Shown here: one piece after another, positions 1 to 16,660 of the stretch
Layout of the letters: each line of letters opens with the position of its first letter
How positions within the stretch are numbered: position 1 is the first letter of the stretch
DNA from: a virus
DNA length: 20,057 nucleotides
IMG/VR virus record: IMGVR_UViG_3300048027_000331
Span: 1-20,057 of that record
Direction: 5' to 3' (one strand)
Position numbers and translations under genes: made by a program
The notes under the pieces: generated by a model
The model's database searches: none
Seen by the model: the letters and a program-made list of their open reading frames with translations, nothing else
What the model was told of the DNA's origin: nothing

Positions 1-3000
1 CCTTTGTTATAGGTCAGGATTATGCAAATGTTACTGAACTAGTAGCGTCATCGGAGTTTATAGACTGTATAGCGTCAATGACTGGTATTTTTCAAAGTGT
101 TGTTATAACCACACCCCCACCAAACCCATTAAATCTTGTTTATGGTTCAGTTACTTTAGATTCATCAACATCAACAACTTTTACCTTACTGATGCCTGTT
201 AATGTTCACACAACAGACGATACACCAGCAGACGCAACAGATAATGATGACCCAGCTTTTCAGACAGATATAAACGAAGTATTTACACTTGAAGATGGTT
301 CAAATCTTAGAATAAAAGATACAGTAAGTAATGTATCTTTAAAATCTAATAGAAGTTTTGAAGTTGGGCTTTGTTATTTAGATTCACATGGTAGGTATTC
401 AAGTATACTGCTTCCAAAAGAATCTTTAGGTGAGTCTATAAGTGAGGTTTTTGTGCCAATAGCAAATTCTGTAAATCTTAATAAACTAAGAATTAAACTT
501 TTTAATAATCCTCCATATTGGGCTGATAGGTATAAATGGTTTGTAAAGGTAAACAAGGGACTTCATTATAATTTATATGCAACCATATTTTACGAAGACC
601 AAATCTACAGATGGATACTTTTACAAGGAGCTAATTTAGGAAAATTAGAAGTTGGAAAAAACTTAATTGTAAAGGCTGATGATAACGGTCCGCTACAACA
701 AGAAGTGAAAACAAAAATTCTTGAAATTACAACCAAAAACGCTACAGACGAGGTGGCTGCAGGTCAAGGGTGGATTAATGGAAATGCAGATAGTTCAGGT
801 GACCCATTAGTGGAATTAGCAGGAACATTTGTAAAAATAAGACCCAATGGATTCACTTTAGATTTTAACCCAGATAACTTTATTAATTACTCATCAAGCA
901 GGAGATTTGGTAGAGGTGGTGGGTCTGGTACTAATACAATCTGGATTCCAAAAGGAAGTAGTAGTGCTTTGGGCTTGTTAATATTGGGGAATTCTGGTCA
1001 ATTAAATGAAGGTCTTCTTCAAAAAAAAACTAGCGCACCTGGAGTAAGCCCTATAGAGTGGTCTGATATTGCTATAACACCAGGGACTCAAATAAAATTG
1101 GAGTTGGTTTATAGTGAAAGTGATGGTAGTCCTAATTTTAATTATTTCAAAGAATGGACTTCTAATAATGAGTATGTAAGTACACCAACAAGAAACGCTC
1201 TTCAGTTATTTTTTGATAGCGAAACAAATTTCACAAAAACAGAAGACTATGCTATGAGTGGTTATGATACAGCCACATCTATTAGGTTTAGAGTTCCTTC
1301 TCTAAATGATGAAAATGAAGGCTTCAAGTTAGTCATAGCAAAATCTAATTCGTCAATGGCAGGAAGATGGGTTATGAGAGTTCAGGCTACAGAAGGGACT
1401 GCAACTTTTGAATCCTCTAGATTAACATGTAATTTAAATCTTGTTTTAGTTACCACATTAGGAATTTTTGAAACAGAGCCAGATGATATAGATAACGATA
1501 TTTATTACGAAACAGAAGAAACTTTTTTGATTGAAAATGGCCTTCACAAAGGAAATGAGCAAGACCAAACATCTACATTACCTGCTATTTCTAAACTAGG
1601 ATTTGGTAATTGCTTTAGTTTTGGTAATGGGGTAGAATCAGTCAGGGTCAAAGACGATAGGTTTTTACCTTCTTTTGATATAAAATCAAGACCAAATATA
1701 GCTATAGTTGAGGGATATGAAAGAAAAGAGGATACTAATAAGCTTATATATAGTGGGCCGTTTAATGAAAACAGCGGATATAATACACTAAATGAGTTTA
1801 ATTCAAGTAGAGGTATAACAAAGTACATGGACATGAAATATGGTTCTATACAAAAGCTTTTTGCAAGGGAATCTGATTTAATAGTTTTTCAAGAAGACAG
1901 AGTTTCAAAGGTCTTGTATGGAAAAAATATACTTACAAGTCCTGACGGAACTGGTAGCTTATCTCAAATAGAACAAGTTTTAGGGCAAGACGTTCCTTTT
2001 TCTGGAGAATACGGTATTTCTTTAAATCCAGAATCTTTTGGCTTTTATGAAGGTAAAATGTATTTCTCAGACGCAAATAGAGGTACTGTTTTAAGATTGG
2101 GAGGAGATGGAATAACACCGATATCTTATATTGGAATGAAATCTTTCTTTAAAGAAAATCTTTACAATAATAAAAATAATTTTAACATAGGTGGATTTGA
2201 CCCTAAATATCATCAGTATGTGTTATCAATGAGTAGCGTTCAGATGCCATCAGAACCACTTGAACTTGATTGTGCTTCTGTATTCACAAAAACACTTGCT
2301 GGAACATTTACATATAGTTTAAATGTAGGTCAATTCCCAGGAACTGCAACTGTAGGTTACAGCACAACAGGAACTATATCAATTTCTATTGTGTACAACG
2401 GAAATACCTATGGTAGCACAGGTTTGACTGGAACAGGAACTGTTACATTTCCTGTAACATCTAGTGATTTAGAGACAACAAATTTAGCCACCGTACAAAT
2501 AACGCCTGTAGGGGTGGTTACTGCAACAATAACTCATGTTTGTCCAGTTCCAGAAACGCTTGAAATAGTTCTTATTGTTGTTAATGATTCACAAGAAGCG
2601 AGTGAAACAATTATAAATAGATATAAGCATAATGGAAGTAACGGGAATAATTATAATTCTGAATTAGATGTATTTGATTTTGATGAATTAACAAGGTTTG
2701 AGACTATATCTGGATTTATGGGAGGAGATGTTATACCAGACAATGGAGATACGGTTACTATTTCCTCATTGAAACAAATAGGAGTTCACACTGGAGATTT
2801 TAATGAGTGTAATAGTTTGGGATATCTTGTTTCTGAGGCCAGTTTAACAGTTCAAAACGTAGTAGACCAGGCCACATATCCAGCAGTTACAACCACTACA
2901 ACTTCCACAGAAGAGGAAAACATTGCAACATTTACATTTAACAGAACTAATACAAGTCAAAAATTGTATTTAGTGTGGAACTATATTGATAATCTTCCCG

Positions 3001-4076
3001 TTTTAGTTAATGATACTGTGACAGGAATTGCTAATGGTGGAAGTAGTGTAATTAATGTAGTAGCTAACGACACAATTCCTTCACCATTCACTATTACAAT
3101 AGGAACACAACCAACAAATGGAACAGCTGTAGTTAATGCTAATAACACTATTACATATACACATACCTCGGGTAACAGTTTAAATGACAGCTTTACTTAT
3201 ATCGTAAGTAGGGGTGGAGCTTGTACTGCAGAAGCCACTGTAACAACGGAAGCCCTTGCAATTACAGTAGATACATATATTTACATATATTTTGATGATT
3301 CTGGCTCTATGAATAACACAGAGGCAGAGCTCCAAACAATGAGAGCTGGAGCCTTAAAATCCACTCTTCAGGACCTTTACGCAACAGGAGGGACTGAATC
3401 AAGCGGTAACACAAACACAGCTACTAATGGTAGTGATGAATACGATGCTAAGGTAACTATTGTTTATGGAGCTACTGGGGGGTGGACAAATGAGAGAACT
3501 TTTGCTGCTATTGGTGATAATGACGTTAATGATTTCATAGCCACGAACACACACAACTCGTTTCCTTCAGATGCAGCTAATGTTATAGTAATGGTTTTCC
3601 AAGACGAAGCGAGTGCTGGTTATCACGATTCTAGAACTAGCGGTAGTTTTAATAATGACGCTAGAACAAATAATTATAACACAGATATGGCTGATATAAG
3701 GTCAAGAGTTACCTCTTTAAACACCTCTAATTCATCTTTTTATAGGGGAGTTGTTTTTCAAGTAGAGGATAATTCAGGAAACCCAGACTATCCATTTAAA
3801 GCGTTTTTGCAGGCTGTTGAAGGCGGTACTGCTTCAAACTACACAGGAACAAATGGATTAAGTGATTTGATGACAGGAAGCACGCCTACGTTTGTTTTTG
3901 AGTATGATATTGAAGACAGTACAAGCAATGATGCTACTGCTCCATTTAAGCCAGGCTCCACAACTGATAGATTTGACCAATGGCAATATTACTATCTATA
4001 TTGGATGACACACGCACTTAACACGCTAGGATATACACCAGATGGTCAAAGTTGGCCAATAATAATAGACGACTAA
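1..4076 (+). CDS. Tail nozzle/muzzle-like protein with Ig-like, Big_9-like and VWA domains (5' partial)
   Basis: Probable tail protein that joins the tail tip to a host-binding module. The first ATG is at 78, but the frame has no stop back to the window edge (first full codon at 3), so the true start is probably outside. Numbering below uses the ATG at 78. Residues about 510-715 (FSFGNGVESVRV, NENSGYNTLNEF, LIVFQEDRVSKVLYG, GGFDPKYHQYVLS) resemble the beta-propeller of crAss-like muzzle and T7-like nozzle proteins. Residues about 720-970 are Thr/Ser-rich Ig-like beta segments. About 973-1060 resembles a Big_9/cadherin-like domain (VVANDT, TNGTAVVNANNTITYTH, DSFTYIV). About 1063-1290 is a VWA fold with the MIDAS motif DDSGSM at 1073-1078 and a later VIVMVFQDE strand. 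No signal peptide is needed in a virion protein. The nozzle assignment is moderately sure; the VWA call is strong. The next gene starts 4 nt after the stop. Confidence 0.75.
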   Translation, partial: FVIGQDYANVTELVASSEFIDCIASMTGIFQSVVITTPPPNPLNLVYGSVTLDSSTSTTFTLLMPVNVHTTDDTPADATDNDDPAFQTDINEVFTLEDGSNLRIKDTVSNVSLKSNRSFEVGLCYLDSHGRYSSILLPKESLGESISEVFVPIANSVNLNKLRIKLFNNPPYWADRYKWFVKVNKGLHYNLYATIFYEDQIYRWILLQGANLGKLEVGKNLIVKADDNGPLQQEVKTKILEITTKNATDEVAAGQGWINGNADSSGDPLVELAGTFVKIRPNGFTLDFNPDNFINYSSSRRFGRGGGSGTNTIWIPKGSSSALGLLILGNSGQLNEGLLQKKTSAPGVSPIEWSDIAITPGTQIKLELVYSESDGSPNFNYFKEWTSNNEYVSTPTRNALQLFFDSETNFTKTEDYAMSGYDTATSIRFRVPSLNDENEGFKLVIAKSNSSMAGRWVMRVQATEGTATFESSRLTCNLNLVLVTTLGIFETEPDDIDNDIYYETEETFLIENGLHKGNEQDQTSTLPAISKLGFGNCFSFGNGVESVRVKDDRFLPSFDIKSRPNIAIVEGYERKEDTNKLIYSGPFNENSGYNTLNEFNSSRGITKYMDMKYGSIQKLFARESDLIVFQEDRVSKVLYGKNILTSPDGTGSLSQIEQVLGQDVPFSGEYGISLNPESFGFYEGKMYFSDANRGTVLRLGGDGITPISYIGMKSFFKENLYNNKNNFNIGGFDPKYHQYVLSMSSVQMPSEPLELDCASVFTKTLAGTFTYSLNVGQFPGTATVGYSTTGTISISIVYNGNTYGSTGLTGTGTVTFPVTSSDLETTNLATVQITPVGVVTATITHVCPVPETLEIVLIVVNDSQEASETIINRYKHNGSNGNNYNSELDVFDFDELTRFETISGFMGGDVIPDNGDTVTISSLKQIGVHTGDFNECNSLGYLVSEASLTVQNVVDQATYPAVTTTTTSTEEENIATFTFNRTNTSQKLYLVWNYIDNLPVLVNDTVTGIANGGSSVINVVANDTIPSPFTITIGTQPTNGTAVVNANNTITYTHTSGNSLNDSFTYIVSRGGACTAEATVTTEALAITVDTYIYIYFDDSGSMNNTEAELQTMRAGALKSTLQDLYATGGTESSGNTNTATNGSDEYDAKVTIVYGATGGWTNERTFAAIGDNDVNDFIATNTHNSFPSDAANVIVMVFQDEASAGYHDSRTSGSFNNDARTNNYNTDMADIRSRVTSLNTSNSSFYRGVVFQVEDNSGNPDYPFKAFLQAVEGGTASNYTGTNGLSDLMTGSTPTFVFEYDIEDSTSNDATAPFKPGSTTDRFDQWQYYYLYWMTHALNTLGYTPDGQSWPIIIDD

Positions 4077-4080
4077 TAAT

Positions 4081-4854
4081 ATGAGTTTAAAATTAGGAAA
4101 TAGAACAATAACATTTGATGAAGTTTATAACGTATGGACTTCTTTTCATTCATATGAACCAGAATGGATGGAAAGACTGGGTGCTAATTTTTATACATTC
4201 AAAGGTGGAGAGTTGTATATTCATGACGAAAACGAAACAAGAACTAGTTTTTACGGTATTTCTTATGGGTGTGATGTTACTTATTCAGCAAACAAAAACC
4301 CTTCGGAAATTAAATTATTTAAAACAGTTAATTTAGAGTCAAACTCTAATGGTTGGTTTGCAGAAATAACATCTGAACTTGAATCAGGTAGAATAGGAAC
4401 CAACTCTAATTTATTGTTTGAGGAAAAAGAAGGCATGAGGTATGGGTATATTAGAAGATATGAAACTGATAGATTAAACTTCAATAAATTGTCTGTAGTT
4501 GGTTTAGGTAACTTACAAAGCGAACCAGCTGCAAATCAATTTGCGTTAACAGATAACATACCAAATCAAGTCCAGGCAAATAATGCCGATGGTCTCGGAG
4601 GCGATGAGCTTTATTTTAATAGTGGCTCTACGCAGCTTATTGGTACTATAGATAGCTATGTTGACAATGTTATAACAGTAGCTTCAACCGATAATGACCC
4701 AGGTGTAGGAGATTTTCTTTTTGTTGTCAAAAACGCAGAAGCAGAGTCTTTTGGATTGAGGGGTTATCATGCAAAAGTAAAATTAATAAACAATAATACA
4801 GATTTTGTAGAGTTGTTTGGTGCGAATAGTGAGGTATTTAAGAGTTACATCTAA
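4081..4854 (+). CDS. Tail nozzle/muzzle-like protein, C-terminal part as a separate gene
   Basis: Structural protein of 257 aa beginning 4 nt after the stop of the VWA tail gene (TAA-TAAT-ATG), so probably translated by reinitiation or coupling. The N-terminal pattern (ITFDEVYNVWTSFHSYEPEW, FYTFKGGELYIHDE, SFYGISYGCDVTYSANKNPS, then KLFKTVNLES) resembles the last propeller part of muzzle proteins of crAss-like and related Bacteroidota phages, which in my recollection normally continues directly from the repeat that ends the propeller region of the upstream gene. Residues about 185-257 form a beta-rich tail (GDFLFVVKNAEAE, LRGYHAKVKLINNN). I see no enzymatic motif, transmembrane segment or signal peptide. 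It is most likely a tail-tip component assembled with the upstream protein. That it is the split-off C-terminal part of a nozzle protein is inference. Confidence 0.65.
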   Translation: MSLKLGNRTITFDEVYNVWTSFHSYEPEWMERLGANFYTFKGGELYIHDENETRTSFYGISYGCDVTYSANKNPSEIKLFKTVNLESNSNGWFAEITSELESGRIGTNSNLLFEEKEGMRYGYIRRYETDRLNFNKLSVVGLGNLQSEPAANQFALTDNIPNQVQANNADGLGGDELYFNSGSTQLIGTIDSYVDNVITVASTDNDPGVGDFLFVVKNAEAESFGLRGYHAKVKLINNNTDFVELFGANSEVFKSYI

Positions 4855-4892: not shown

Positions 4893-5618
4893 ATGGCATT
4901 TTTAACAACAATGGGATTGGTAACTGGAGGTTTAGGCTCCGTTAATCAATTTATACAAGGAGGTAAGATGAAAAGGCAAGCCTCAGATATGCTTGCTGGT
5001 ATAAGGGATGTTGAGTTAACTAATTTAGCAGAAAACCTAAAACCTTCTTTAGCAGCCGAAAGAACAGCAATACAGGGTATAAATCAAAGCATGTCTAATG
5101 CTGTAGATGTTGCTGGAACTATGGATGCTGCTCAAGCTATGGCTATGTTGGGTTCAGCACAAGGTCAGGCTTTTGACCAACAAACAAAAGTTTTTGATTC
5201 AATTCTTCAGAAAGAGTCTGATTTTGACGTAATGCGAATGGAACAAGAAGTAAAAAACAGAGATATACTGGAGGCGAGAAACATGGCGAAACGTCAAATG
5301 GCTATGGGACAAATGCAGGCTGGGGCTGAAATGCAAAGCGCAGCTGTAAAGGATTTTGCAACAACAGCTGTTAGTGCTGGTGTGGCTCAAGAAGCCGCAC
5401 AGGCTGAGGCAGGCTTTACAGACCCTAAAGCCCTTAGATTAAGTAAAAAAGCATCTAAATTTGGCGTAGGTAAGGATAAGCTTACTGAGGTCTACAATGC
5501 AAGTGGTACAGCAGGTCTTAAACAACTAGTAAAAGACAACAGACCTGATTTTAAAGATGGTAAATTTGCTCAGTTCTTTTCAGGTATTGGTAGTAAAATA
5601 GGAAGCTTGTTTAATTAA
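4893..5618 (+). CDS. Small internal virion (ejection) protein, T7 gp14-like by position
   Basis: A 241-aa protein, mostly helical and rich in Ala, Gln and Met (for example residues 75-175, with MAKRQMAMGQMQAGAEMQSA). The N-terminus starts with a short hydrophobic, Gly-rich stretch (MAFLTTMGLVTGGLGSVNQF) that could insert into or associate with membrane. The C-terminus ends in a Gly/Phe-rich segment (FFSGIGSKIGSLFN). Size, helical character and place (after the nozzle genes and before a 654-aa and a 2249-aa helical protein) match the smallest of the three internal core proteins of T7-like podoviruses, which form a channel through the cell envelope for DNA entry. There is no catalytic motif. 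The gene is the first after a promoter candidate. The role rests mainly on gene order and composition. Confidence 0.6.
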   Translation: MAFLTTMGLVTGGLGSVNQFIQGGKMKRQASDMLAGIRDVELTNLAENLKPSLAAERTAIQGINQSMSNAVDVAGTMDAAQAMAMLGSAQGQAFDQQTKVFDSILQKESDFDVMRMEQEVKNRDILEARNMAKRQMAMGQMQAGAEMQSAAVKDFATTAVSAGVAQEAAQAEAGFTDPKALRLSKKASKFGVGKDKLTEVYNASGTAGLKQLVKDNRPDFKDGKFAQFFSGIGSKIGSLFN

Positions 5619-5624
5619 TATAAT

Positions 5625-7589
5625 ATGGGATACTCAGGGGGAATATATTCAAAGCCAATTTTAGGGGGGTTTTCAGATGTTGCAAATCTATATCTTCAAG
5701 GGAAGATGCAGGTTATCAATATTAGACAACAAGTAAGACAGCAAAGAAGTGAAGAGCTTCAGGCTTTGGCAGAACAAGCCGCTGAAATAGAGGCTACTGG
5801 TGTTTCTGAGATAGACAAGCTTTATCAACAGGGTGCAAATGACTTAAGACAAGCCGCTAGTGATGCTCATACATCCAATATACTTGGTCAAACTAATAGA
5901 GGCGTAGCAACTGCGCGCGTAAATAACTACACATCACAAGCCTCACAGTTAGCAAATGCGTCCACTATCATCAAAACAAAAGTTGATGAGATGGACAAAG
6001 AAATATTAAACGGAAAAGTAAACGATTATTCGAGAGCAAAGTATTTAAGAGGTTGGTTTACTGAGCAAAATTTAGTCCCAAGGTATATAAAAATTCCAGT
6101 CGACCCCAATGACGCATCAAAAGGTTATACACAGGTGCCACAATACCAAACAATGGGCACTGAAATGATTGACGGAAAACTTCATTATAGAAAAACATCT
6201 AATTTTCTTAATACAAACACTGGGGTAGAAGAAGTTCAAACTCGATTGACAAGTATAAACGAAATGAGCAATACGCCTGATTTATTTATGCAGTTTGATG
6301 TTAATGATTATGTTAAGGAATCAACAAATGCAATAGGTCAAAGTCAAGCAGTTGATTTAGTGCCAGGACAACCTGCTGGAAGCCCTCCTCCATTTACAAG
6401 TCAACAAACAATAACTGCACAAGGAGGAAATACTCAAATATACACAAGAGTTATAGCTCCATCAAGATTAATTCAGGTGGCTGATATGATAGAAACAGAT
6501 ATTAATGCTGTTCTACAGGATGATAAAAAAGTTATTTCTATTCTATCTGAATATTATAATGCAAGGGCGATTGGAGATGAAGGTTTTGGTGGTATGAAAG
6601 ACCAAAGTCAAATTAATGATTTATTTGGAGAGACAGAGTATACAGACCAATCTACTGGAGTTGTAACAAAAATACCTCAATTTTATGATAAAAATGGTGA
6701 TGGCATTACTTTAACTAATACAGATTCAAGCGGCAATATAATAGACCCAACTATAATTCAGTTGGATGCGTATAATAACGAAGAGATTACAGACGACCAG
6801 AGGTCTATTGTGGGAGCTATACTAAGAAAGAAAATGCTTAATGCGTTTAACATAAAGCTTTCTGATTTCAAAATAAGAGATATATTAAAAGCAAAAAAAC
6901 CTAAAGGTGACGAATCCTTAAGCGTTTTAGCTTCAGTTTATACAAAGAATGGTCAAACAACTACAACAGACTTTGATAATATTAACACCATGATTTCATT
7001 AACAGAAGCACAAAACGCCAATAACACAAGCCTTACCACTCAAATATTGCAAGAAAGGAATACAAATGGTTTTACTACGAGAGGGTTTAATAATCAAGTT
7101 GCCGCAACAGTATTTAAACCAACAAATGAGTATGGTAGTATTAACATAGGTAATGAGTTCCAGGAAGTCTTAAGTGAAAATATGCTTATTTCTGACCTTT
7201 ACAACAAAAAACTGGATAAAATAAGAGGAGTAGGCTTCTCTGAAGACCCATCTGGAACTGGTAATTCTAGAATATTCGTTACTGGTGATGTTATAGTTGC
7301 AGAGACTGAAGCGGATTGGAATCAAACATCTGGTGGTCAAAACGCTGCCTCTTCAGGATACTCTACAAACTCAAAACAACAAGTCGTAAGTGAATCTGTT
7401 TCTGTTTTAGAAGATTCTAAGATTCAAAGATTATATCAAAATTTATATGCTAATGTTCCAGGTTTTGACGCTAAAATGCGAGGTTTAGGGTTTACTGGGC
7501 CTACTGCAAAAAGCTCTACCTTTGGCAATAGCGCTTATGTCGATGCTATAATTACATATATTAAAGATAAGAAAAACAACGCACTATAA
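5625..7589 (+). CDS. Middle internal virion (ejection) protein, T7 gp15-like by position
   Basis: A 654-aa protein that I do not recognise by sequence. Residues about 20-130 are strongly helical and Gln/Ala/Glu-rich (QQVRQQRSEELQALAEQAAE), as expected for a coiled coil. The middle is mixed and carries many polar Asn/Thr/Gln runs (for example VPGQPAGSPPPFTSQQT around 245-262). The C-terminus (about 600-654) is a compact region ending in basic residues. There is no signal peptide, membrane segment or enzyme motif. It lies 6 nt after the 241-aa gene and 1 nt before the 2249-aa gene, so all three are probably co-transcribed. Length and position fit the middle core protein (T7 gp15, about 750 aa) of the ejectosome. 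This is a synteny-based inference; a neck or tail protein remains possible. Confidence 0.55.
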   Translation: MGYSGGIYSKPILGGFSDVANLYLQGKMQVINIRQQVRQQRSEELQALAEQAAEIEATGVSEIDKLYQQGANDLRQAASDAHTSNILGQTNRGVATARVNNYTSQASQLANASTIIKTKVDEMDKEILNGKVNDYSRAKYLRGWFTEQNLVPRYIKIPVDPNDASKGYTQVPQYQTMGTEMIDGKLHYRKTSNFLNTNTGVEEVQTRLTSINEMSNTPDLFMQFDVNDYVKESTNAIGQSQAVDLVPGQPAGSPPPFTSQQTITAQGGNTQIYTRVIAPSRLIQVADMIETDINAVLQDDKKVISILSEYYNARAIGDEGFGGMKDQSQINDLFGETEYTDQSTGVVTKIPQFYDKNGDGITLTNTDSSGNIIDPTIIQLDAYNNEEITDDQRSIVGAILRKKMLNAFNIKLSDFKIRDILKAKKPKGDESLSVLASVYTKNGQTTTTDFDNINTMISLTEAQNANNTSLTTQILQERNTNGFTTRGFNNQVAATVFKPTNEYGSINIGNEFQEVLSENMLISDLYNKKLDKIRGVGFSEDPSGTGNSRIFVTGDVIVAETEADWNQTSGGQNAASSGYSTNSKQQVVSESVSVLEDSKIQRLYQNLYANVPGFDAKMRGLGFTGPTAKSSTFGNSAYVDAIITYIKDKKNNAL

Positions 7590-7590
7590 G

Positions 7591-10500
7591 ATGATTGTGA
7601 ACGAACAAACAACAACACCAGATATCAATACAGAATCTTCTGATGTTACAACAAATACAGCTGTGGTCGAAAATGATTCTCAGAATCAAACTAACCCAAC
7701 AGACCCGCCTATTGTTGTTGATAAAGTGGTTAATTATTTTAAGTCTAAACTTGATAAGGCAGGTAAAAAATATGATGAAAAACTTCTTTACCAATACGCA
7801 AAAAGAAGCGACTTAAAAACCTTTATAAGAAAGTGGCATGTTTACAATGGATTTGCAAACCAACTGCCATCTCCATCAGAGGTGGATAGTGTCTACAACA
7901 CTTGGATAGACCAAAACGCCATTGAAAAAAAAAATCAAAACCAGACTGCACAACAGGTTCTACAGAGCCAACCAAATGTTCAGTCTACAGATTCGGACTC
8001 ACCTTCCACATCTACAGATGGAAGCTCTTCATCGGCGCCAAATACAATAAATCTCAGTGAAGAAGATTTAAATAACGCTAGTAACACCAATACAGACGAA
8101 ATAAATCTATATGATTTTGACTCTTGGAAAAAAGAAATAGAGATAAAAGGTATTGGGGGTTATTTAAGTGAAACAAGATATCTTTCCACGATAGTAAATC
8201 AAATTCCTAAAGAGGTTTTTGAAATGAATGAAAGAGATGCGGAAAGAGAATTAAAAAAACTTCTTACGCCATATCAATACGAGGTTTCTCAAGCTGTTGG
8301 CACATCTAATCAGTTAAAAATAAAAACTCCTGACGGAAGAGAGCAGATTATTGAACTATACCCCAACCTTAAAAAACAAAGATTAAATTATATTAATGAT
8401 GGTGGAGTAGAGGATTTGGTAGATAACAGGTTCAAGCAATTTAAAAACTTTTTACTTGGATATGACGATGATGGAAATGTTGTAGGTAATCCAAACCTTG
8501 TTCAAAACATGGCTGATAGGTTTTCTAACTCTAACAATATAATTATAGATATTTTTCAGGAGACTGAAAGATTTGTAACGCCTGAATTAGTTGATTTAGA
8601 AAATCTAGCAGGGTCTCTTGGTGTTAGTGTTGACACATTTATGAAAGACGGCCTTATAGACTCAAGAAGTGTAGAGCTTGGCATCATATCTGCTAAAGCA
8701 AGCTTACAACAAGTTTATGATGATGCAATAGCGCAGGAACAAAATATATTCAATATAGCGTCTCAAAATGTAAGGTCAAAATTTAAAAACGTATATCGTG
8801 CTTCTGGAGAAGCCGTAACTACCGAAATCAAAAAAGAAACAGCTTCTTTATTTGAGTCATACGACCCAGATAACAATATTTTTGCAGTAAAACAAGCATA
8901 TAAATATTTAGATGATATGCTTGTGGCGATAAAAGAAAAAAAAGACATAGCTTCTAAATTTATGGGTTCTGCTTTGGCTTTGTCAGGCACTTATAAGGGT
9001 TTTGATTTAAATGACAGCGTAGGCATGATGTATGCCGTTAGAGCTGGTTTAGATTTGGGAGATATGCCATCAGATGGTATATTGATAAATGGACTTCCTT
9101 CTTCTGCAAATAGTTTTCAAAATATAGTTACAGACCCACAAGGACTTCATGATATTATGAAGGGTAAAATAAAAATTGAAGTAGACCCAAATAGTGATGC
9201 TTATGGCGTTTTAGCTCCTTATATTTCAGGAGCTTTAAAACTACAGGATAGAAACGAGGCCTACGACTCTACAGGGGGGCTTAAAGGTACAGCAGGCCAA
9301 GCCTTAGCAAATGCTAATATAGCATATGAGTGGGTAGAAGACTTAGTTCAAGGTGTAGGTATTGGTGTTTTAGATATTGGGGCAAACACTGGTGTTCTGT
9401 TTTCAGACGCACTACAAATGATTGGGTTTGATAAAACAACAGCAGATTCAGTGGTTTTTGGAATGTATGGCCTTCCAACGACCCCAGGACTAATATCTCC
9501 TCAAGAAGTTTTAATGCTTAAAGAATCGGCGTTGCCTTTATACGATAAGCAAATAAAAGATGCGGATAGTTTTGGTGAAATGTTGGCTTTAGTGAATCAA
9601 CCATTTTCTCAATCCATACCCTACTTTGCTGCTTTTGCAGTGAATCCAGCACTTGGGCTTACTGTAACAGGAACAAGTTCTTATGGAGCATCGAAAACAG
9701 AGTTTGATAGATTAAAAATGGCGGCGCAAGATGCATTAGATAGGGGAGCAGAGCTAACAGAAAGCCAAAAGAAAATACTATCGGTTGGAGAATGGGAAGC
9801 CAGAGGCATAGCTTTTTCAAAAGCAGCACAAGAGACAATAATGACAAGGCTTTTTACATATAGATATTTTAAAAGTATGTCTGGAGCTAAAAATTTTAGT
9901 GGTGCCAAAAACCTTGAAAACGCAAGAAAATTAGCTGAAAGTTTTGAAAAGGTTGCTGTAAAATCAAGAATGGATGGTTTCAAGAAAATGTTTGGTGTTG
10001 ATGGGAAAGCTTTACGAAATGAAATTATAGAAGAAGAAATAATAGCACTAAATAACTACACCATAAATGTAATGTGGGGTCTAGAAGAGTATGACCAGAA
10101 AAAACTTAACGACCTTATGGTTAATACAGGTTTGATATCTGTTTTTTCTTCTACTGCTATGCAAAAGTTTGCGACTTTTGGCATGAATAAAAAAATTAGA
10201 GGAGTTGTTGATAGTACTATAAAAGGGAACATAAAACTAGACTCTGAAAGACAAGTAGTTGAAAACTACCTTAAAGCTGATGTTGATGTTGCTGTAATAG
10301 AACAAGATGCTGAAAAAAATGGAACACCATTAGAGGGAAATGACTCTTATAATTCAGCTCTTCGGATGAGAAGCAAATATCAGGAAGAGTTGATGGATAT
10401 AGAAAATGCAAAGCAAGAGCTCGTAGACAACATGAGTGAATCTGATAAAGCGGCTTATTTGGAGCTTATTATTAGGCTAGAAGAGTCTCATAAAATATTA

Positions 10501-13500
10501 AACTCTGACAAAACCAATACTGAAAAACAGGTTGCACTCGATAATATACCTAAATTACAAGAGTCATTAAGAAGTATTCTTGCGAGAAACCCTTCTGAAT
10601 TAGGTTTTCATTTATTGAACAGTAAAACACAGCAAGAGTATTTTGACAAGGCTATGAATATGATTGTGAACGAGGAAAAAGATAAAGCTGTACAAGAGGG
10701 TAAGGGGGATGATTTTTCTATTGACCTCAGCTCAACAGACCCTATGGTTATTCAAAGAGCTGCTGAGATGTATAAAAATGAATTAGAGACAGGTCTTAGA
10801 AACAACAGAGAATCCTTTTTACCAGCATCTTCATATAATGTTTTAGACCCAACCAAGTACATGGTTGATGTGACTAGGGAGGAAATGGATAACTTCAACA
10901 TACAAGCAAGTATAGAGTCTTTTAGGTTGAAGCAATATAACGCAAAAACTCTTGACGAAAAAGGTGGGAAAAAGCCAGACAACCAAAGAGAAAATTTAGA
11001 ACAGCCTAAAGTTGAGCTAACAACTGAGGGTATTGAAAGACCTGTTACAAAAGAAGATGTTTTATTGCAGCAAAAAATAGACGAGCAACAAGAGAAAAAA
11101 GACAACTTAAAAGAAGACTCTGGTAAAAAACAAACTCTAGGCGAATATAAAACAGAATCAATAGACGACATTGTAAATATTATTGAATCGTTTGCTATAA
11201 ATGAAGACTTCATGGCTTCTTTGCCTGAATACCAGCAAAAACATATTGTTAAGTTTTTTAGTGATATTGAACTAGGAAAAGACCCACAATTAGGTCATGT
11301 TAGGTCTATACTAGACTCTCATAGAATTGCTACAGACATATCTGGTAGGTCAGCAGATAAAATAGAAATATTTCAAGCACTAGGGTTTAAAAAAGACGAA
11401 ATTGCAAACCTTACAGTAGAGCAAATGTACGCAAAGCTTAATTCTTTGTCTCAAAAATTTGTTACAGCAGGTTTTAATGTGGGAAGCTTTAAGACTGGAT
11501 TTGGTACAGGAGATATAATTCTAAAAACATTGTTTAGAGATAAATATGTTGGAAGTAAATTTTATGACTTATTTAGAAGGGTTAGTAGAAAAGTTGACGA
11601 AAGCAGACAAACAACAAACTTACAATACAAAGAGGCTTTAAGTTTATATGAAAAATTAGTTATAAAACAAAACTCAGAAACAGGAGGCAATAAGTCTGTA
11701 AACCCAAATGATTTAGAAAACTCCTATACTCTTTACATGTTGGCAGGCGGATTTAGGAAGTCTGGCAAAACAAATGAAAAAGGAGTTGATTTAGAGTTTA
11801 GTAGATTTAAAAGCCTTTTATCACAAGAGTTGAGGTTAAGAAAACAAGAGTTTGATTCATCTTCTGGCACAAATAAAGCAAAGTATAAAAAAGAATATGA
11901 AATGTTTAAAAGGGTTTATGATGCTCTTGGATATGAAACAGCAAATAGCTATAGTGAATTAAATGCATCTGAAGCCGATATAAATTTTATTAAGCGGGTT
12001 TCTCTTCTCCAGCCTGGAGATTTAGCCTTGCGAAGAATAACTGATTTCGGAGGCAAACTAGATAACCAAGACAGAGGAACTAGTGTTCCTTTTGTAGATG
12101 GAAGTTATATTCCGATTCCTTTGTTTAAAGGATTTGATTCATCTGGCTCAAGAACGTCGTCTAAAGACGGTGGAGAAGGTTCAAACATAAATGACGCTTC
12201 AAACCTAATGTCCATAGAGTTTGTAGAAAACCTTTCAGAAGACCTTAGACTAAACCCAGGTATGTTTGCAAAAAATGTTTTTGACAAAATGAATGGGGCT
12301 TTAACTGACATAAATGCAAGACAGGATGTTGTTACTTTAAAATACCTAATGGACAATCCTAGATTTCAAGAATTGTTTAGCAGTAAAAAAGAATATGATG
12401 TTTTAGCAGCTTATTTTAAAGGAAGAGAAAAGATTTTTAATAATATTGTGGCACAAGGCAACAATAATGTAGTTGAAGTATCATCTGGCGCTAAGTATAT
12501 AATTCCTAAAGTTATAAGAGCGGCTTACAGCACATGGGCGGCAAGAGCACTCGCAAGGTTAGACCAAAGACCATCTCAGTTTTATAGTGCTATTAGTGGT
12601 ACTGCTCCCTACTTAAAATCTAAGTTTGCTAAAAACCATTTAAATAGTGGAACATTTAAGTTTACAGGAGGTCTTTCTACTTTAACAAACGGGACAAAGG
12701 CTAGAACTATTGTTGGTAAGTATATGCAAAATAGCATGTTTGGAAGGGGTGATTTATCAAATATATACTCAAAATCAAGAACAGGACTTCGTAATGCTAT
12801 TCAAGCAGAATTCCTACTTGACGAAAATCAACAAATACCAACAAGCTATTACTTAAACTTTTTAAACATAAAAGACAAAGATGGCGCCATAATAAAAGAA
12901 GTAGGAGCTGTATCTACTTTGAACAACTTTATAGATTATATTTCTAAAGGAAGTGAGCTTTCTCTAGATATATTTTTAGCAAGTGCAGATAGAGCTGCAG
13001 CTAATGTAGCTTTTGAGTCTCATTACATAGACGCAAGAGTGAAGCAAGGGGAAAATCTTGAGAATGTTGACATGACGGCGTGGTGGAAAAAAGAAAATGA
13101 AAACCCAAATACTGATGCAATAAACGAAGCTGATGCTTTAGTTGCTCAAACCATGAGACAAACAGGTAAGTTTTCTGAAGCAGATATATATAATAACGGA
13201 GAGACAGGTCAAAACATATTAAGAGCATTTATACCTTTTCAAAGGTTTATTACAAACGCAAGAGCAAATTTTGCTAATCAAGTAGCTATATTAAATGACC
13301 CAACCATTCCACCAAGTCAAAAATCAGAAGCTAAATCAGCTATACAAGGAATAATTCAGGAAATTATGACTTTTAAAAGTGTAAAGCTTGGTAGCGCTTT
13401 AGTTACCATGAAGGGCTTTGCTGCTGGTATATTAGGATTTGGTTTGTCTGATGATGATATTAGGAGACGTGGGGGTGTTACTCAACTTATTGGGGCGGAT

Positions 13501-14340
13501 ATGCTTCCTGTTGAGGATAGGCCTGGCTTATTAGAATCAGGTCCAAATGAATACTCTGATTTATTTGGAGATTTACCTCCAGGACAAAAAGAAACACTTG
13601 AGGCTGACTTTATATCCAAGATGGCTAGTAGAGAGTATGCTTCTATTGAAGGGTTTTCTTATTACATAGGAGAATATGCTAGAGAGTATGAAAACAAATT
13701 TAAGGTTGGTAATACTTATAGTGTTTTGTCTGCAGCTATTGGTGATGTATTGTTGACAACAAAACCATTCGCACTTCCAAGTGCTGGAGAAAGTGCTCTT
13801 TTAGTTAAGCTAAATGAAATGATGGGTAATGAATTTTTCAATGACTTTGTAAGTAAAGATATTGAAAACGCAAAAACTAAAGGCGGCAGAAGAGAGTTGA
13901 TACTTGAAAACTTTTCAGGAGTGTATGGTATAGGTGAAGAACAATATAATAAGGTTGTAGAGGCTTTAGATTTGTATTTTGAAAATGAAGTAAACATCTA
14001 TACAGGGGAATACGGAAATAGAACACAATATGTAGGAGGTGGAAATAATGAAGCTAGAACAAAACAATTAAGAAGCAGTATAGGGTTTTTAGTTAGCCTT
14101 AGAACTCTTGGAGAAAACTTCTTACCAGGCGTTCCTAAAGGCGATTTAATTAAAATAGGTAACTACCTACAGAGAGCTATAGAGAATGAGTTTAAGACAA
14201 CTAAAAAAGACCCACTGATGCCTACAATAGATAGAGGTTCGGATTCTGGATTAATAAATGATGCCTATCAGCTACTTAAAGGTCCAAGACAAAATAACGA
14301 GGAAGAGATAAAAAAATACTTAAAGCAATTTCAAAGGTAA
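7591..14340 (+). CDS. Giant internal virion (ejection) protein, T7 gp16-like by position
   Basis: At 2249 aa this is the largest gene of the window. Residues 1-45 are an acidic, Thr/Asn-rich low-complexity tail; about 46-106 is a small helical unit (VVNYFKSKLDKAGKKYDEKL); about 107-155 is a Gln/Ser/Thr linker. Long helical stretches follow, with hydrophobic Gly-rich segments at about 581-606 (VQGVGIGVLDIGANTGVLF) and 671-705 (IPYFAAFAVNPALGLTVTGT). A charged linker (about 1124-1187) separates a second half whose end (ADRAAANVAFESHYIDARV near 1800, then a FIPFQRFITNARANFANQV segment and a Gly-rich hydrophobic stretch near 1945) resembles the helical C-terminal regions (LPD38-like) of large podovirus ejection proteins. 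I find no lysozyme or transglycosylase motif like the SLT domain of T7 gp16. It probably forms the DNA ejection conduit. Its 3' end overlaps the opposite-strand endonuclease gene by 10 bp. Confidence 0.6.
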   Translation: MIVNEQTTTPDINTESSDVTTNTAVVENDSQNQTNPTDPPIVVDKVVNYFKSKLDKAGKKYDEKLLYQYAKRSDLKTFIRKWHVYNGFANQLPSPSEVDSVYNTWIDQNAIEKKNQNQTAQQVLQSQPNVQSTDSDSPSTSTDGSSSSAPNTINLSEEDLNNASNTNTDEINLYDFDSWKKEIEIKGIGGYLSETRYLSTIVNQIPKEVFEMNERDAERELKKLLTPYQYEVSQAVGTSNQLKIKTPDGREQIIELYPNLKKQRLNYINDGGVEDLVDNRFKQFKNFLLGYDDDGNVVGNPNLVQNMADRFSNSNNIIIDIFQETERFVTPELVDLENLAGSLGVSVDTFMKDGLIDSRSVELGIISAKASLQQVYDDAIAQEQNIFNIASQNVRSKFKNVYRASGEAVTTEIKKETASLFESYDPDNNIFAVKQAYKYLDDMLVAIKEKKDIASKFMGSALALSGTYKGFDLNDSVGMMYAVRAGLDLGDMPSDGILINGLPSSANSFQNIVTDPQGLHDIMKGKIKIEVDPNSDAYGVLAPYISGALKLQDRNEAYDSTGGLKGTAGQALANANIAYEWVEDLVQGVGIGVLDIGANTGVLFSDALQMIGFDKTTADSVVFGMYGLPTTPGLISPQEVLMLKESALPLYDKQIKDADSFGEMLALVNQPFSQSIPYFAAFAVNPALGLTVTGTSSYGASKTEFDRLKMAAQDALDRGAELTESQKKILSVGEWEARGIAFSKAAQETIMTRLFTYRYFKSMSGAKNFSGAKNLENARKLAESFEKVAVKSRMDGFKKMFGVDGKALRNEIIEEEIIALNNYTINVMWGLEEYDQKKLNDLMVNTGLISVFSSTAMQKFATFGMNKKIRGVVDSTIKGNIKLDSERQVVENYLKADVDVAVIEQDAEKNGTPLEGNDSYNSALRMRSKYQEELMDIENAKQELVDNMSESDKAAYLELIIRLEESHKILNSDKTNTEKQVALDNIPKLQESLRSILARNPSELGFHLLNSKTQQEYFDKAMNMIVNEEKDKAVQEGKGDDFSIDLSSTDPMVIQRAAEMYKNELETGLRNNRESFLPASSYNVLDPTKYMVDVTREEMDNFNIQASIESFRLKQYNAKTLDEKGGKKPDNQRENLEQPKVELTTEGIERPVTKEDVLLQQKIDEQQEKKDNLKEDSGKKQTLGEYKTESIDDIVNIIESFAINEDFMASLPEYQQKHIVKFFSDIELGKDPQLGHVRSILDSHRIATDISGRSADKIEIFQALGFKKDEIANLTVEQMYAKLNSLSQKFVTAGFNVGSFKTGFGTGDIILKTLFRDKYVGSKFYDLFRRVSRKVDESRQTTNLQYKEALSLYEKLVIKQNSETGGNKSVNPNDLENSYTLYMLAGGFRKSGKTNEKGVDLEFSRFKSLLSQELRLRKQEFDSSSGTNKAKYKKEYEMFKRVYDALGYETANSYSELNASEADINFIKRVSLLQPGDLALRRITDFGGKLDNQDRGTSVPFVDGSYIPIPLFKGFDSSGSRTSSKDGGEGSNINDASNLMSIEFVENLSEDLRLNPGMFAKNVFDKMNGALTDINARQDVVTLKYLMDNPRFQELFSSKKEYDVLAAYFKGREKIFNNIVAQGNNNVVEVSSGAKYIIPKVIRAAYSTWAARALARLDQRPSQFYSAISGTAPYLKSKFAKNHLNSGTFKFTGGLSTLTNGTKARTIVGKYMQNSMFGRGDLSNIYSKSRTGLRNAIQAEFLLDENQQIPTSYYLNFLNIKDKDGAIIKEVGAVSTLNNFIDYISKGSELSLDIFLASADRAAANVAFESHYIDARVKQGENLENVDMTAWWKKENENPNTDAINEADALVAQTMRQTGKFSEADIYNNGETGQNILRAFIPFQRFITNARANFANQVAILNDPTIPPSQKSEAKSAIQGIIQEIMTFKSVKLGSALVTMKGFAAGILGFGLSDDDIRRRGGVTQLIGADMLPVEDRPGLLESGPNEYSDLFGDLPPGQKETLEADFISKMASREYASIEGFSYYIGEYAREYENKFKVGNTYSVLSAAIGDVLLTTKPFALPSAGESALLVKLNEMMGNEFFNDFVSKDIENAKTKGGRRELILENFSGVYGIGEEQYNKVVEALDLYFENEVNIYTGEYGNRTQYVGGGNNEARTKQLRSSIGFLVSLRTLGENFLPGVPKGDLIKIGNYLQRAIENEFKTTKKDPLMPTIDRGSDSGLINDAYQLLKGPRQNNEEEIKKYLKQFQR
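14331..14340. other. Convergent gene overlap joining the structural and replication arms
   Basis: The stop region of the giant ejection gene (TAA at 14338-14340) overlaps the stop of the opposite-strand DUF1064-like nuclease gene (TGA complement at 14331-14333) by 10 bp. No strong intrinsic terminator for either direction is visible around it; only a weak 5-bp hairpin (AAAGG/CCTTT, 14333-14352) spans the site. Transcripts from the two arms probably run into each other here. Confidence 0.85.
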
Positions 14341-14786
14341 TATTTATCCTTTATTATATTAATAACTTCTTGACAGTCCTTTTGATTTCTTGGTACAAAT
14401 AAATCAGTACACCATCCTTTTAGATTTATATACCTTTTAAACAACTTCCAAACCAAAGGAAATCTTTCATTTGGATTGCCTTTGCATTCTATTATATATC
14501 TTGGGGGTACTTGAGTGTCAACAAAGTCTGGAGTGTATGTTATTGGTAGTATTTTTTTATTTCCCCTATCATGAAGATATTTTTTTGTTGGGGTTTTTTC
14601 GTAAGAAGAATGGTCTGAGAAAAATGAATCAATGATTGTGAACTTTTCAGATTCGTAACCAGCTTTAATTTTATTAGCTTTTAGAAGCAGATACATATGA
14701 GATTCTAGTTTCGACTGAAACTGTATGCCGTCTATTTTTGTTTTTTTAGAGCGAGTTATTTGTCTTCCTTTTTTATATCTTCTCAT
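14331..14786 (-). CDS. DUF1064-like PD-(D/E)XK endonuclease
   Basis: A 151-aa basic protein with the layout of the DUF1064 phage nuclease family, related in fold to T7 endonuclease I and Holliday-junction resolvases. The pattern is KIDGIQFQSKLESHMYLLLK (the 'dG..F.Sk.E..yy..L' start), then ITYTPDF, then IIECKG. The likely metal-binding residues are E28, D87, E100 and K102 (the E-x-K pair). A basic N-terminus (RRYKKGRQITRSKKTK) suits DNA binding. It probably cuts branched DNA during recombination or packaging, or degrades host DNA. It is the last gene of the minus-strand operon, starting 2 nt after the 148-aa gene, and its stop lies inside the 3' end of the giant ejection gene. The fold assignment is fairly sure; the substrate is inferred. 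Confidence 0.75.
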   Translation of the reverse strand: MRRYKKGRQITRSKKTKIDGIQFQSKLESHMYLLLKANKIKAGYESEKFTIIDSFFSDHSSYEKTPTKKYLHDRGNKKILPITYTPDFVDTQVPPRYIIECKGNPNERFPLVWKLFKRYINLKGWCTDLFVPRNQKDCQEVINIIKDKYYL

Positions 14787-14788
14787 TT

Positions 14789-15235
14789 TTATTCATCTAC
14801 ATCCTCAAGATACATATAATTATCAATATGCATATCATCTAAGTTTTTTATAGCTTGGATAATGTTTTCTGCATATACAACCGTATCAAGATACTTTTTA
14901 GTTTTGCCATTATCTAAAGAAACAGGAATATATTTTTTTAAATCATTTATTCCATTCCAATACAAAACCTCATTTAAAGCTTGTTCTATTTTACTTTTAT
15001 TTCTTAAATATTCCACAGCCATTTTGTTTGTTATAAAAAATTCTTTTGAAACAAGATAAACATATTCGTCTTTTACACTTACAACCTCAAGATTTCCATT
15101 CTCATAAACTGATATATATATAAACGAATCATCTAAATATATCTTCAAATCTATGTTAATTAAAGAGTCTCTTACGAAAATCAACTCTGCTTCACTAAGG
15201 TCTTTGTTTACGAATATTTTTTTTCTAAAGTCCAT
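14789..15235 (-). CDS. Hypothetical protein, 148 aa
   Basis: I do not recognise a function. The frame is open further upstream to a TTG at 15265, but that codon lies in the stem of a terminator hairpin, so the ATG at 15235 (MDFRKKIFVNKDLSEAELIF) is the better start. The protein is mixed alpha/beta: an N-terminal helix-like stretch, a beta-rich middle (LKIYLDDSFIYISVYENGNL) and an acidic C-terminus (YLEDVDE). There is no signal peptide or membrane segment. It sits downstream of an intrinsic terminator and 2 nt before the DUF1064-like nuclease, so these two genes depend on readthrough or on their own promoter. The short acidic C-terminus could be a partner-binding tail, but this is speculative. 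Confidence 0.7.
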   Translation of the reverse strand: MDFRKKIFVNKDLSEAELIFVRDSLINIDLKIYLDDSFIYISVYENGNLEVVSVKDEYVYLVSKEFFITNKMAVEYLRNKSKIEQALNEVLYWNGINDLKKYIPVSLDNGKTKKYLDTVVYAENIIQAIKNLDDMHIDNYMYLEDVDE

Positions 15236-15249
15236 AAACAAATTTAATG

Positions 15250-15285
15250 AAAAAACCCTAAGCAATTTTGGCAGAGCTTAGGGTT
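15250..15285 (-). terminator. Intrinsic (rho-independent) terminator
   Basis: On the minus strand a perfect 10-bp stem (AACCCTAAGC / GCTTAGGGTT, at 15276-15285 and 15254-15263) with a 12-nt loop is followed directly by a T run (complement of the A run at 15250-15255). No matching T run exists on the plus strand, so it acts on leftward transcripts. It would end transcripts of the phosphoesterase/59-aa gene block before the last two genes of the operon. Confidence 0.85.
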
Positions 15286-15381
15286 CTTATGAATGAAAAC
15301 AATGTAACAAAGAATAAAACCAAAGACTTATGGTTAGTTAGGGTGTCAAAAGTAATCTTTGTTCATACCAAATATATGAAA
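15286..15381 (-). other. Non-coding leader/trailer segment between the 59-aa gene and the terminator
   Basis: I find no convincing open frame here on either strand. On the minus strand it starts with a TATATTTG box (15369-15376), which fits the Bacteroidota -7 element, but no good -33 element lies 19-20 nt upstream. The segment contains a pair of complementary arms (AACAAAG near 15358-15364 and CTTTGTT near 15307-15313) and a short inner hairpin (ACCA/TGGT). If the box is used, the product would be an RNA of about 110 nt ending at the terminator. Otherwise this is simply the structured 3' UTR of the operon. Confidence 0.3.
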
Positions 15382-15561
15382 TTATTCATAAGGACTATCA
15401 CCCCAGCCGAACTCATAGTTAATAGTTACTAACAGAAAGTGCATCTTTACAGTATTGTAAGGCTCTTCTTCTGTTGCTTCGAATGTTTCAAAGCCAACTA
15501 TCATTCCTTGATGAGGCCACCTAAATGTCATAGATAACATGTACCAGTTTTTTTCTTCCAT
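15382..15561 (-). CDS. Small hypothetical protein, 59 aa
   Basis: A short open frame read directly from the sequence. The ATG at 15561 lies 1 nt after the stop of the phosphoesterase gene and the frame ends at a TAA at 15382-15384. The protein starts MEEKNWYMLSMTFRW and ends INYEFGWGDSPYE. It is acidic and very rich in aromatic residues (three Trp, four Phe, four Tyr), with a likely two-strand beta pattern (YMLSMTFRW, then TVKMHFLLVTINYEF). There is no signal peptide or known motif. Its tight spacing to the upstream gene and the absence of any other gene in this gap support it as real; translation is probably coupled to the phosphoesterase gene. The function is unknown; small phage proteins in such operons often bind host proteins, but nothing here shows that. 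Confidence 0.65.
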   Translation of the reverse strand: MEEKNWYMLSMTFRWPHQGMIVGFETFEATEEEPYNTVKMHFLLVTINYEFGWGDSPYE

Positions 15562-15562
15562 T

Positions 15563-16660
15563 TTAAAAAATATGTGTTAATCTAGCTACCTGCCCAAACT
15601 TTGGGTGGTGTAAAAATCCTTCTACAGCTTTAGGGTTATGTTGGTATCCATTTCTATGATGCCAAGAATCTGTCCCACTTGGACTTCTTAGGCTTTCCAC
15701 AGTAACCCCTGCGTAATCTTTTGCGTTTTTGTGATGGACATGGTGCGTGTATACATACCTATGCTTACACTTGCTCCAAAATTTATTAGCCTCGACAGCC
15801 ATAAGTAGAGGTAGGTCTGGAATTTTAGCCCCATCTCCATGTGTTGTCCCTATAAGGTTTTGCCCATAACTATAATATTTTCTATGCTTGATACTTACAT
15901 CAAACGATACATTCTCACAATTTCTAAACCAAGAGGATATGACATCTGCTAAAAAGAATCCGTTTGTGTAATCGTGATTAGAAGGATTGTATGTTACATG
16001 AACATCTGCCACAGATAGCAGGCTTTCTATTACATCAACATAAAGCTTTTTAGCGTTTAAAAAGTTCTCATACCACATTCCATCGGTGTCTTGTGGTGTA
16101 CCACTTGTAGTGGTTCTTCTCGGTGTATCTATATGTAATATGTCGTTCCCGATAATTAATAATATTTTTTCTATATTAAATCCTGATGATTTACTAAGTA
16201 TTCCTTTTATACCTTGTTTAACTCTTTTAACTGCTATTTGTTGATTATAATCTTCTCCTGTCTCAAAGCTTGTAGCCAACTTCCCAATATGAACATCTGC
16301 TGGGTCTAAAACAAGCAGGTGTGGATTAGTTTGTTTATCTCTTTTGATTGGAGCGTATGATGGAGAGTGTTTATCCATCTCACTAATAATCCTTTTTGAA
16401 ATATCATTATATGATATAACATTGGGTCTGACTTTTACAGAATATTCTTTTGTTTTATCCCAATATTCTTTGACCGAAGAAAAATCTATACCCCTCTGCC
16501 TACAATACTCATAAACCCCACTATGCCTTATCTTGTTTAGCTCTAATTGTTGTTCTTGGTCAAGATAAACTCTGAACTTTACTCTTCCTGGTTGAGGTTT
16601 TTTTGGTCTTATGCCAAGTGCCTTGGCTTCATCATCTGATAAATAACATCTCTTCTTCAT
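15563..16660 (-). CDS. Calcineurin-like metallophosphoesterase
   Basis: A 365-aa protein with the metal-ligand motifs of the calcineurin-like phosphoesterase superfamily in order: D-x-H at 122-124 (DPADVHIGKL), GND at 171-173 (LLIIGNDILHID), the NHD of a GNHD-type motif at 228-230 (NPSNHDYTNG), H274 in GTTHGDG, and a HHVHH cluster at 306-310. These residues typically bind two metal ions and cleave phosphomonoesters or phosphodiesters, including DNA or nucleotides. Residues 1-110 form an N-terminal extension with a helical, Trp/Lys-containing stretch (KEYWDKTKEYSVKVRPN) that could bind nucleic acid, although I see no clear HTH. The start ATG overlaps the stop of the 56-aa gene (ATGA). The substrate is unknown; DNA end processing is plausible given the nucleases in the same operon. 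Confidence 0.85.
   Translation of the reverse strand: MKKRCYLSDDEAKALGIRPKKPQPGRVKFRVYLDQEQQLELNKIRHSGVYEYCRQRGIDFSSVKEYWDKTKEYSVKVRPNVISYNDISKRIISEMDKHSPSYAPIKRDKQTNPHLLVLDPADVHIGKLATSFETGEDYNQQIAVKRVKQGIKGILSKSSGFNIEKILLIIGNDILHIDTPRRTTTSGTPQDTDGMWYENFLNAKKLYVDVIESLLSVADVHVTYNPSNHDYTNGFFLADVISSWFRNCENVSFDVSIKHRKYYSYGQNLIGTTHGDGAKIPDLPLLMAVEANKFWSKCKHRYVYTHHVHHKNAKDYAGVTVESLRSPSGTDSWHHRNGYQHNPKAVEGFLHHPKFGQVARLTHIF

Follow-up and report, generated by a model that had tools for sequence, protein, structure and literature searches.

The tail of the crAss-like phage PhicrAss001 ends in a hexameric muzzle, whose length varies by insertions and for which a role at the cell surface was proposed by the authors (Bayfield et al. 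2023, PMC10172136). Its muzzle protein, gp44, is one chain comprising the IG1 and IG2 domains and a crass domain, whereas the muzzle described here is encoded by two ORFs; the two share a homologous muzzle body (phrog_14478) and C-terminal part (PF25729), while the large insertions vary (PMC10172136). The first of the two parts also ends in a Big_9 domain followed by a VWA-like head, which is absent from the isolate phages compared. Tailed viruses encode VWA domains with a MIDAS as CobT-type cobaltochelatase subunits (PMC8651126), yet these are metabolic proteins, while the domain considered here belongs to a putative tail tip. The same domain family, with about 38-49% aligned identity, is found beside baseplate genes in extracellular contractile injection systems (eCIS) of Bacteroidota (Dokdonia and Chryseobacterium), where the carrier protein, with a PKD domain, is unrelated to the muzzle. 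In the literature, of which coverage was incomplete, no earlier report of a VWA domain in a crAss-like tail was found. In substance, the first-pass finding holds. A VWA-like head is an unusual feature for a tail tip, and the one described here is part of a broader family exchanged among tail-like systems; it is this family, together with the split muzzle design, that makes the finding of interest.

Muzzle genes of the window

The window, i.e., the whole 20,057-nucleotide (20-kb) stretch of viral DNA that was analysed, is 99.9% identical to three IMG/VR contigs across 9-11 kb. Its long ORF (3-4076, plus strand) is open at the 5' edge, and the near-identical contig L003 encodes the whole protein of 1782 aa. 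Residue numbers here count from the ATG at nt 78; as the ORF is 5'-truncated relative to L003, the true numbering is higher by 450, and the MIDAS-type residues discussed below correspond to D1523, S1525, S1527, T1591, and D1626 of the full-length protein. Homology to the muzzle body was found both with phrog_14478 (virion structural protein, E=1e-154) and with isolates, as tblastn matched structural genes of Cellulophaga phages phi18:3 (gp114) and phi38:1 (gp097), Flavobacterium elemo phages, and others. Judged from these similarities, the ORF encodes the first, N-terminal portion of the split muzzle (tail-tip) protein of a marine, crAss-like Bacteroidota phage, which bears out and refines the first-pass annotation, where the domain was placed at the end of a phage tail protein. 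The features are as follows.

1-4076, plus strand: N-terminal part of the muzzle (tail-tip) protein, cut at its 5' end by the window edge (phrog_14478, tblastn, L003)
1800-2189, plus strand: best-conserved stretch of the muzzle body, directly before the swap site (muzzle alignment)
2235-2990, plus strand: spacer from the muzzle body to the Ig-like domain, where the inserted part begins (comparison with phi38:1)
2991-3245, plus strand: Big_9 bacterial Ig-like domain, a stalk ahead of the VWA-like domain (PF17963, E=6.8e-11)
3273-4025, plus strand: VWA-like domain, residues ~1066-1316 (AlphaFold2, 68 aligned sequences)
3294-3308, plus strand: MIDAS-type motif DxSxS with D1073, S1075, and S1077 (sequence, conservation)
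3492-3500, plus strand: ERT, with E1139 and the candidate MIDAS Thr T1141 (conservation)
3597-3608, plus strand: FQDE closing strand beta4, with the candidate MIDAS Asp D1176 and the invariant E1177 (conservation, model)
4074-4083, plus strand: junction, where the in-frame stops TAA TAA are followed by the start codon (ATG) of the second muzzle ORF
4081-4854, plus strand: 257-aa ORF of its own for the second part of the muzzle, with the crAss MUZ C-terminal region (PF25729 crAss_MUZ_C, E=2.2e-7)

The C-terminal region of the muzzle (MUZ_C) is thus encoded alongside the muzzle, in the ORF that begins behind the pair of in-frame stops. This second ORF is homologous to the end of phi38:1 gp097 and to phi18:3 gp115; in phi38:1 the C-terminal part belongs to the same chain, the muzzle passing straight into MUZ_C without the inserted part, whereas the window and phi18:3 encode it in an ORF of its own. 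In the relatives L052 and L080, the stop and the start overlap at the junction (TAATG). The separate MUZ_C ORF, the in-frame stops, and the stop-start overlaps in relatives together show that the muzzle is split, and a fusion of the two ORFs by readthrough or frameshifting was considered and ruled out by the tandem in-frame stops, the separate start, and these overlaps. As the muzzle of phi18:3 is also split, a single chain is not a defining feature of muzzles. Both phi18:3 parts, gp114 and gp115, were annotated from virion MS/MS, and by analogy with these proteins and with PhicrAss001, the muzzle of the window probably sits at the tail end of the virions. Downstream of the muzzle, the window holds a 2249-aa ORF (7591-14340) without a Pfam match, whose location would suit a crAss-like cargo or ejection protein.

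Fold and MIDAS-type motif of the C-terminal domain

Relatives of the domain were collected stepwise to 68 aligned sequences. Using this alignment, AlphaFold2 gave a confident alpha/beta model (mean pLDDT 92.6, pTM 0.91), superseding a single-sequence prediction that reached a pLDDT of only 35. The predicted element order, b1-a1-b2-a2-a3-b4-a4-b5-a5-b6-a6, is that of VWA domains without the beta3 edge strand. The predicted fold extends to residue ~1316 (nt 4025), with the stop of the protein at 4074-4076, and an end at 3950, as first proposed, would omit the last helix.

Fold comparison placed VWA domains on top, albeit weakly. The best PDB match in Foldseek was the VWA domain of ANTXR1 (E 0.03, TM 0.27/0.38), nothing in the PDB fell below 1e-3, and in the top 50 the VWAs of integrin beta, C2, factor B, and CACHD1 were interspersed with other Rossmann folds. 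Against BFVD, three matches fell below 1e-3, those with E<1e-7 including a protein already named as VWFA, and nine of the matches at ranks 4-14 carried VWFA or von-Willebrand names. The match in question, the 986-aa 'VWFA domain-containing protein' A0A7S9SU38 of Virus NIOZ-UU157 (E=5.4e-8), has a predicted structure that matches the domain at 19% identity and a TMq of 0.49.

Sequence profiles were largely silent. The window domain had no VWA match in Pfam, the profile search proposed in the first-pass annotation; of 32 family members, one matched VWA_2 at E=0.053. Comparison of the domain alignment with VWA by hhalign gave an E of 3e-4 and a probability of 38-41%, compared with E-values of 0.05-0.8 for response-regulator, SDR, reversed, and shuffled control alignments. 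This pairing is reliable over beta1-MIDAS-alpha1 only, since pairing beyond it differs among alignment subsets, and global hhalign was uninformative. FQDE paired with the VWA motif TDG in the full alignment but not with the compact subset and was dropped as evidence. Searches of PDB sequences with phmmer and HMMs yielded no relevant match, the atrolysin matches (E 0.23) being due to chance, and no relatives of the domain were found in the GenBank phage set or the PLSDB plasmid set.

The motifs DDSGSM (nt 3294-3311, beginning at D1073) and FQDE (beginning at residue 1174, nt 3597) lie exactly where they had been reported. DxSxS directly follows strand beta1, predicted at residues 1066-1072, and D1073, S/T1075, and S1077 are each kept in 66 of the 68 aligned sequences. 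The Ser or Thr of the second MIDAS loop, assigned by its place in the element order and not by geometry, is position 1141 (S/T in 57/68), and D1176, at the end of beta4, takes the place of the MIDAS Asp (66/68). Because these MIDAS-type positions are conserved across the 68 sequences, the motif is not a chance occurrence. Around the site, loop length and loop sequence are variable, with the DxSxS loop constant; the bottom loops are also variable, so loop variability by itself is no proof of a binding face. For one pair of sequences, dN/dS was 0.22 in the domain and 0.09-0.13 in the rest of the protein, which indicates that the domain is under purifying selection, weaker than elsewhere in the protein.

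Compared with described VWA/I domains (PF00092, PF13519; ANTXR1, integrin beta I-like), which are its best Foldseek matches, the domain is alike in the DxSxS after beta1, in the S/T and D that fill the remaining MIDAS positions, and in the predicted order of alpha/beta elements, whereas it lacks the beta3 edge strand, carries family-specific insertions, falls below Pfam detection, and has FQDE where TDG is common. Alternatively, the domain could be a Rossmann-like fold that merely resembles VWA, either enzymatic or independent of metal, and that uses its D and S residues for other chemistry. The absent Pfam match, the weak TM to solved VWAs with other Rossmann folds intermixed, and the additional conservation of E1139 (66/68) and E1177 (68/68) are in keeping with such a domain, but the DxSGSM that follows beta1, the S/T and D in the two remaining MIDAS positions, the VWA element order, and the VWAs among the top fold matches speak against it, and we regard it as unlikely. 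As profile searches do not identify the domain as VWA and fold matches are weak though top-ranked, the name VWA-like is used rather than VWA. The claim of a VWA domain with an intact MIDAS accordingly stands in part: the five MIDAS-type positions are conserved and the model follows the VWA order with confidence, but beta3 and the Pfam match are missing. On sequence and model, the C-terminal domain is best described as VWA-like with a conserved MIDAS-type motif.

Two groups of relatives deviate from this pattern. Phage proteins of ~1205-1209 aa in L088, L090, L091, and L099 carry the domain with a degraded DxSxS (YSSFGNM, YSSLGNM, YTSGAEM, and YTSGVEM), a natural loss of the metal motif. Diverged relatives with DGSGSI occur in L123, L126, L137, and L144, on contigs labelled as viral but possibly cellular; the L123, L126, and L144 proteins have an N-terminal membrane segment (the start of L137 is cut off), and L123 has a TSP3 repeat.

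Exchange at the muzzle site and other carriers

Ends of the first muzzle part were surveyed in the best 80 muzzle loci (L150-L229), all near the query, of which 64 had readable ends. Eight combined the VWA-like domain with a split muzzle, 32 were split with another end, 22 were unsplit without the domain, and in two MUZ_C was not found; none of the 22 unsplit muzzles thus carries the domain. Among the examined VWA muzzles with a readable 3' side, MUZ_C is a separate downstream ORF in 18 of 19. In the remaining one, L070, the chain likewise terminates behind the VWA-like domain, with no MUZ_C found nearby. In L159-L160, L171-L202, and L025, the split site of the crAss-like muzzle is occupied by other, unrelated C-terminal ends of several families.

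In the tree of muzzle bodies, the VWA label requires seven changes, at least six of them forced by well-supported branches, compared with a mean of 14.4 for shuffled labels. The VWA-bearing L079 pairs with the unsplit L167, phi18:3, with another end, pairs with the VWA-bearing L060/L070, and the unsplit phi38:1 is placed among VWA muzzles. The domain tree, built without the L088/L091 relatives that have lost the MIDAS motif, is discordant, grouping the L079 domain with those of L062/L082, whose muzzle bodies are nearest phi38:1. From the label changes and the discordant trees it follows that the domain has been exchanged, or else repeatedly gained and lost, at the muzzle site; exchange between related phages, which the first-pass annotation had proposed as a check, is thereby supported.

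VWA domains frequently function in protein assembly, and the domain could be structural, its MIDAS-like site joining muzzle chains or neighbouring subunits or gating the tail without binding the host. Its location right at the break of the muzzle chain and its absence from the unsplit muzzles would fit such a function. However, 32 of the 40 split muzzles in L150-L229 carry other ends without the domain, and the lipoproteins and the eCIS protein described below end in the domain yet have no muzzle, leaving assembly a small but appreciable chance of being its role.

Outside muzzles, the domain ends a protein of ~1030-1090 aa with a PKD-like domain in Dokdonia and Chryseobacterium. In Dokdonia pacifica (L311, G002:C10:151500-171400), the PKD and VWA-like domain protein (702-3971) follows baseplate genes and adjoins genes for Baseplate_J, Phage_base_V, CIS_tube, gp19 tube, and sheath, while in Chryseobacterium (L074, L075) sheath matches lie ~14-18 kb from the carrier on the same strand. 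Gene content identifies both loci as contractile injection systems. The Flavobacteriaceae genomes G036, G248, G264, and G400 (L316-L319) encode proteins of 524-570 aa that end in the VWA-like domain and begin with a lipoprotein signal followed by CSKDE, which we take to resemble the surface lipoprotein export signal of Bacteroidota; they are candidate surface lipoproteins. Altogether, the domain was present in 5 of 400 sampled Flavobacteriaceae genomes. Many further phage proteins bear it at or near the C-terminus, some on contigs >200 kb.

The abundance of the domain on non-muzzle phage proteins and the neighbouring Ig-like domain, a common decoration module of phages, may suggest an ordinary decoration, i.e., an adhesive domain for glycan, mucus, or matrix that holds the phage near surfaces or particles without deciding host range. 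Yet, the domain is placed in the muzzle and not on the capsid, and it is exchanged among related tail tips, making mere decoration improbable. Its occurrence on an injection-system protein and on candidate lipoproteins fits recognition at a surface, and its sharing among phage tail tips, injection machines, and surface lipoproteins suggests a shared recognition module.

One further carrier is an element of ~11.4 kb in Leeuwenhoekiella aequorea (L312, G001:C6:1-20000; 4991-16382), inserted in tRNA-Leu(gag) and flanked by imperfect 20-nt direct repeats, one of them at the 3' end of the tRNA-Leu gene. It encodes an integrase, an excisionase, a regulator, and a lone 1553-aa muzzle with a VWA-like head, and no other virion gene was recognised in it. 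The genome of L. aequorea, the sole muzzle carrier among the 400 sampled Flavobacteriaceae genomes, showed neither a MUZ_C match nor a second muzzle. The element resembles a phage satellite equipped with a tail-tip part of its own, with a decayed prophage remnant as the rival explanation.

A candidate for host recognition

The reading we favour is that of a split muzzle with a free C-terminal arm, whose head probably binds a ligand on the host surface via a metal ion. The muzzle chain is cut where the insert sits, unsplit relatives forming one chain, and the cut at the insert gives the first muzzle part a free C-terminal arm of spacer, Ig-like domain, and VWA-like domain, while the second part, from the next ORF, completes the muzzle. 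In the muzzle hexamer, six heads would then attach to the ligand by way of a metal ion at D1073/S1075/S1077/T1141/D1176, and the variable loops beside the site would provide specificity; a swap of heads would in that case alter recognition by the tail tip. The sequence, its conservation, the confident predicted fold, the gene split, and the swapping are observed, whereas metal binding, the tail-tip position of the head, ligand binding, and a role in adsorption are what we infer for the domain, and binding of a host receptor would be consistent with its position, its swapping, and its relatives. A gliding adhesin as the target, raised in the first-pass annotation, would be a guess. Alternatively, receptor binding in these phages may be carried out by dedicated tail fibres instead of the muzzle.

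It could be speculated further, though with considerable doubt, that the split muzzle serves as a port at which exchangeable tip domains dock, and that members of the VWA-like family, as recognition modules that depend on a metal, pass between the tail tips of crAss-like phages and the contractile injection systems and surface lipoproteins of Bacteroidota. The satellite-like Leeuwenhoekiella element could put its first muzzle part on helper particles. If so, the helper phage would supply the second muzzle part, and the head encoded by the element would change what the helper particles bind. The two-chain design of the muzzle leaves a free C-terminus for such a head, and the presence of the domain in phages, flavobacterial injection systems, and host lipoproteins would represent three independent systems for finding a ligand. 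For host recognition by crAss-like phages, the head may offer a defined, exchangeable, and testable candidate with a metal site that can be altered by point mutation.
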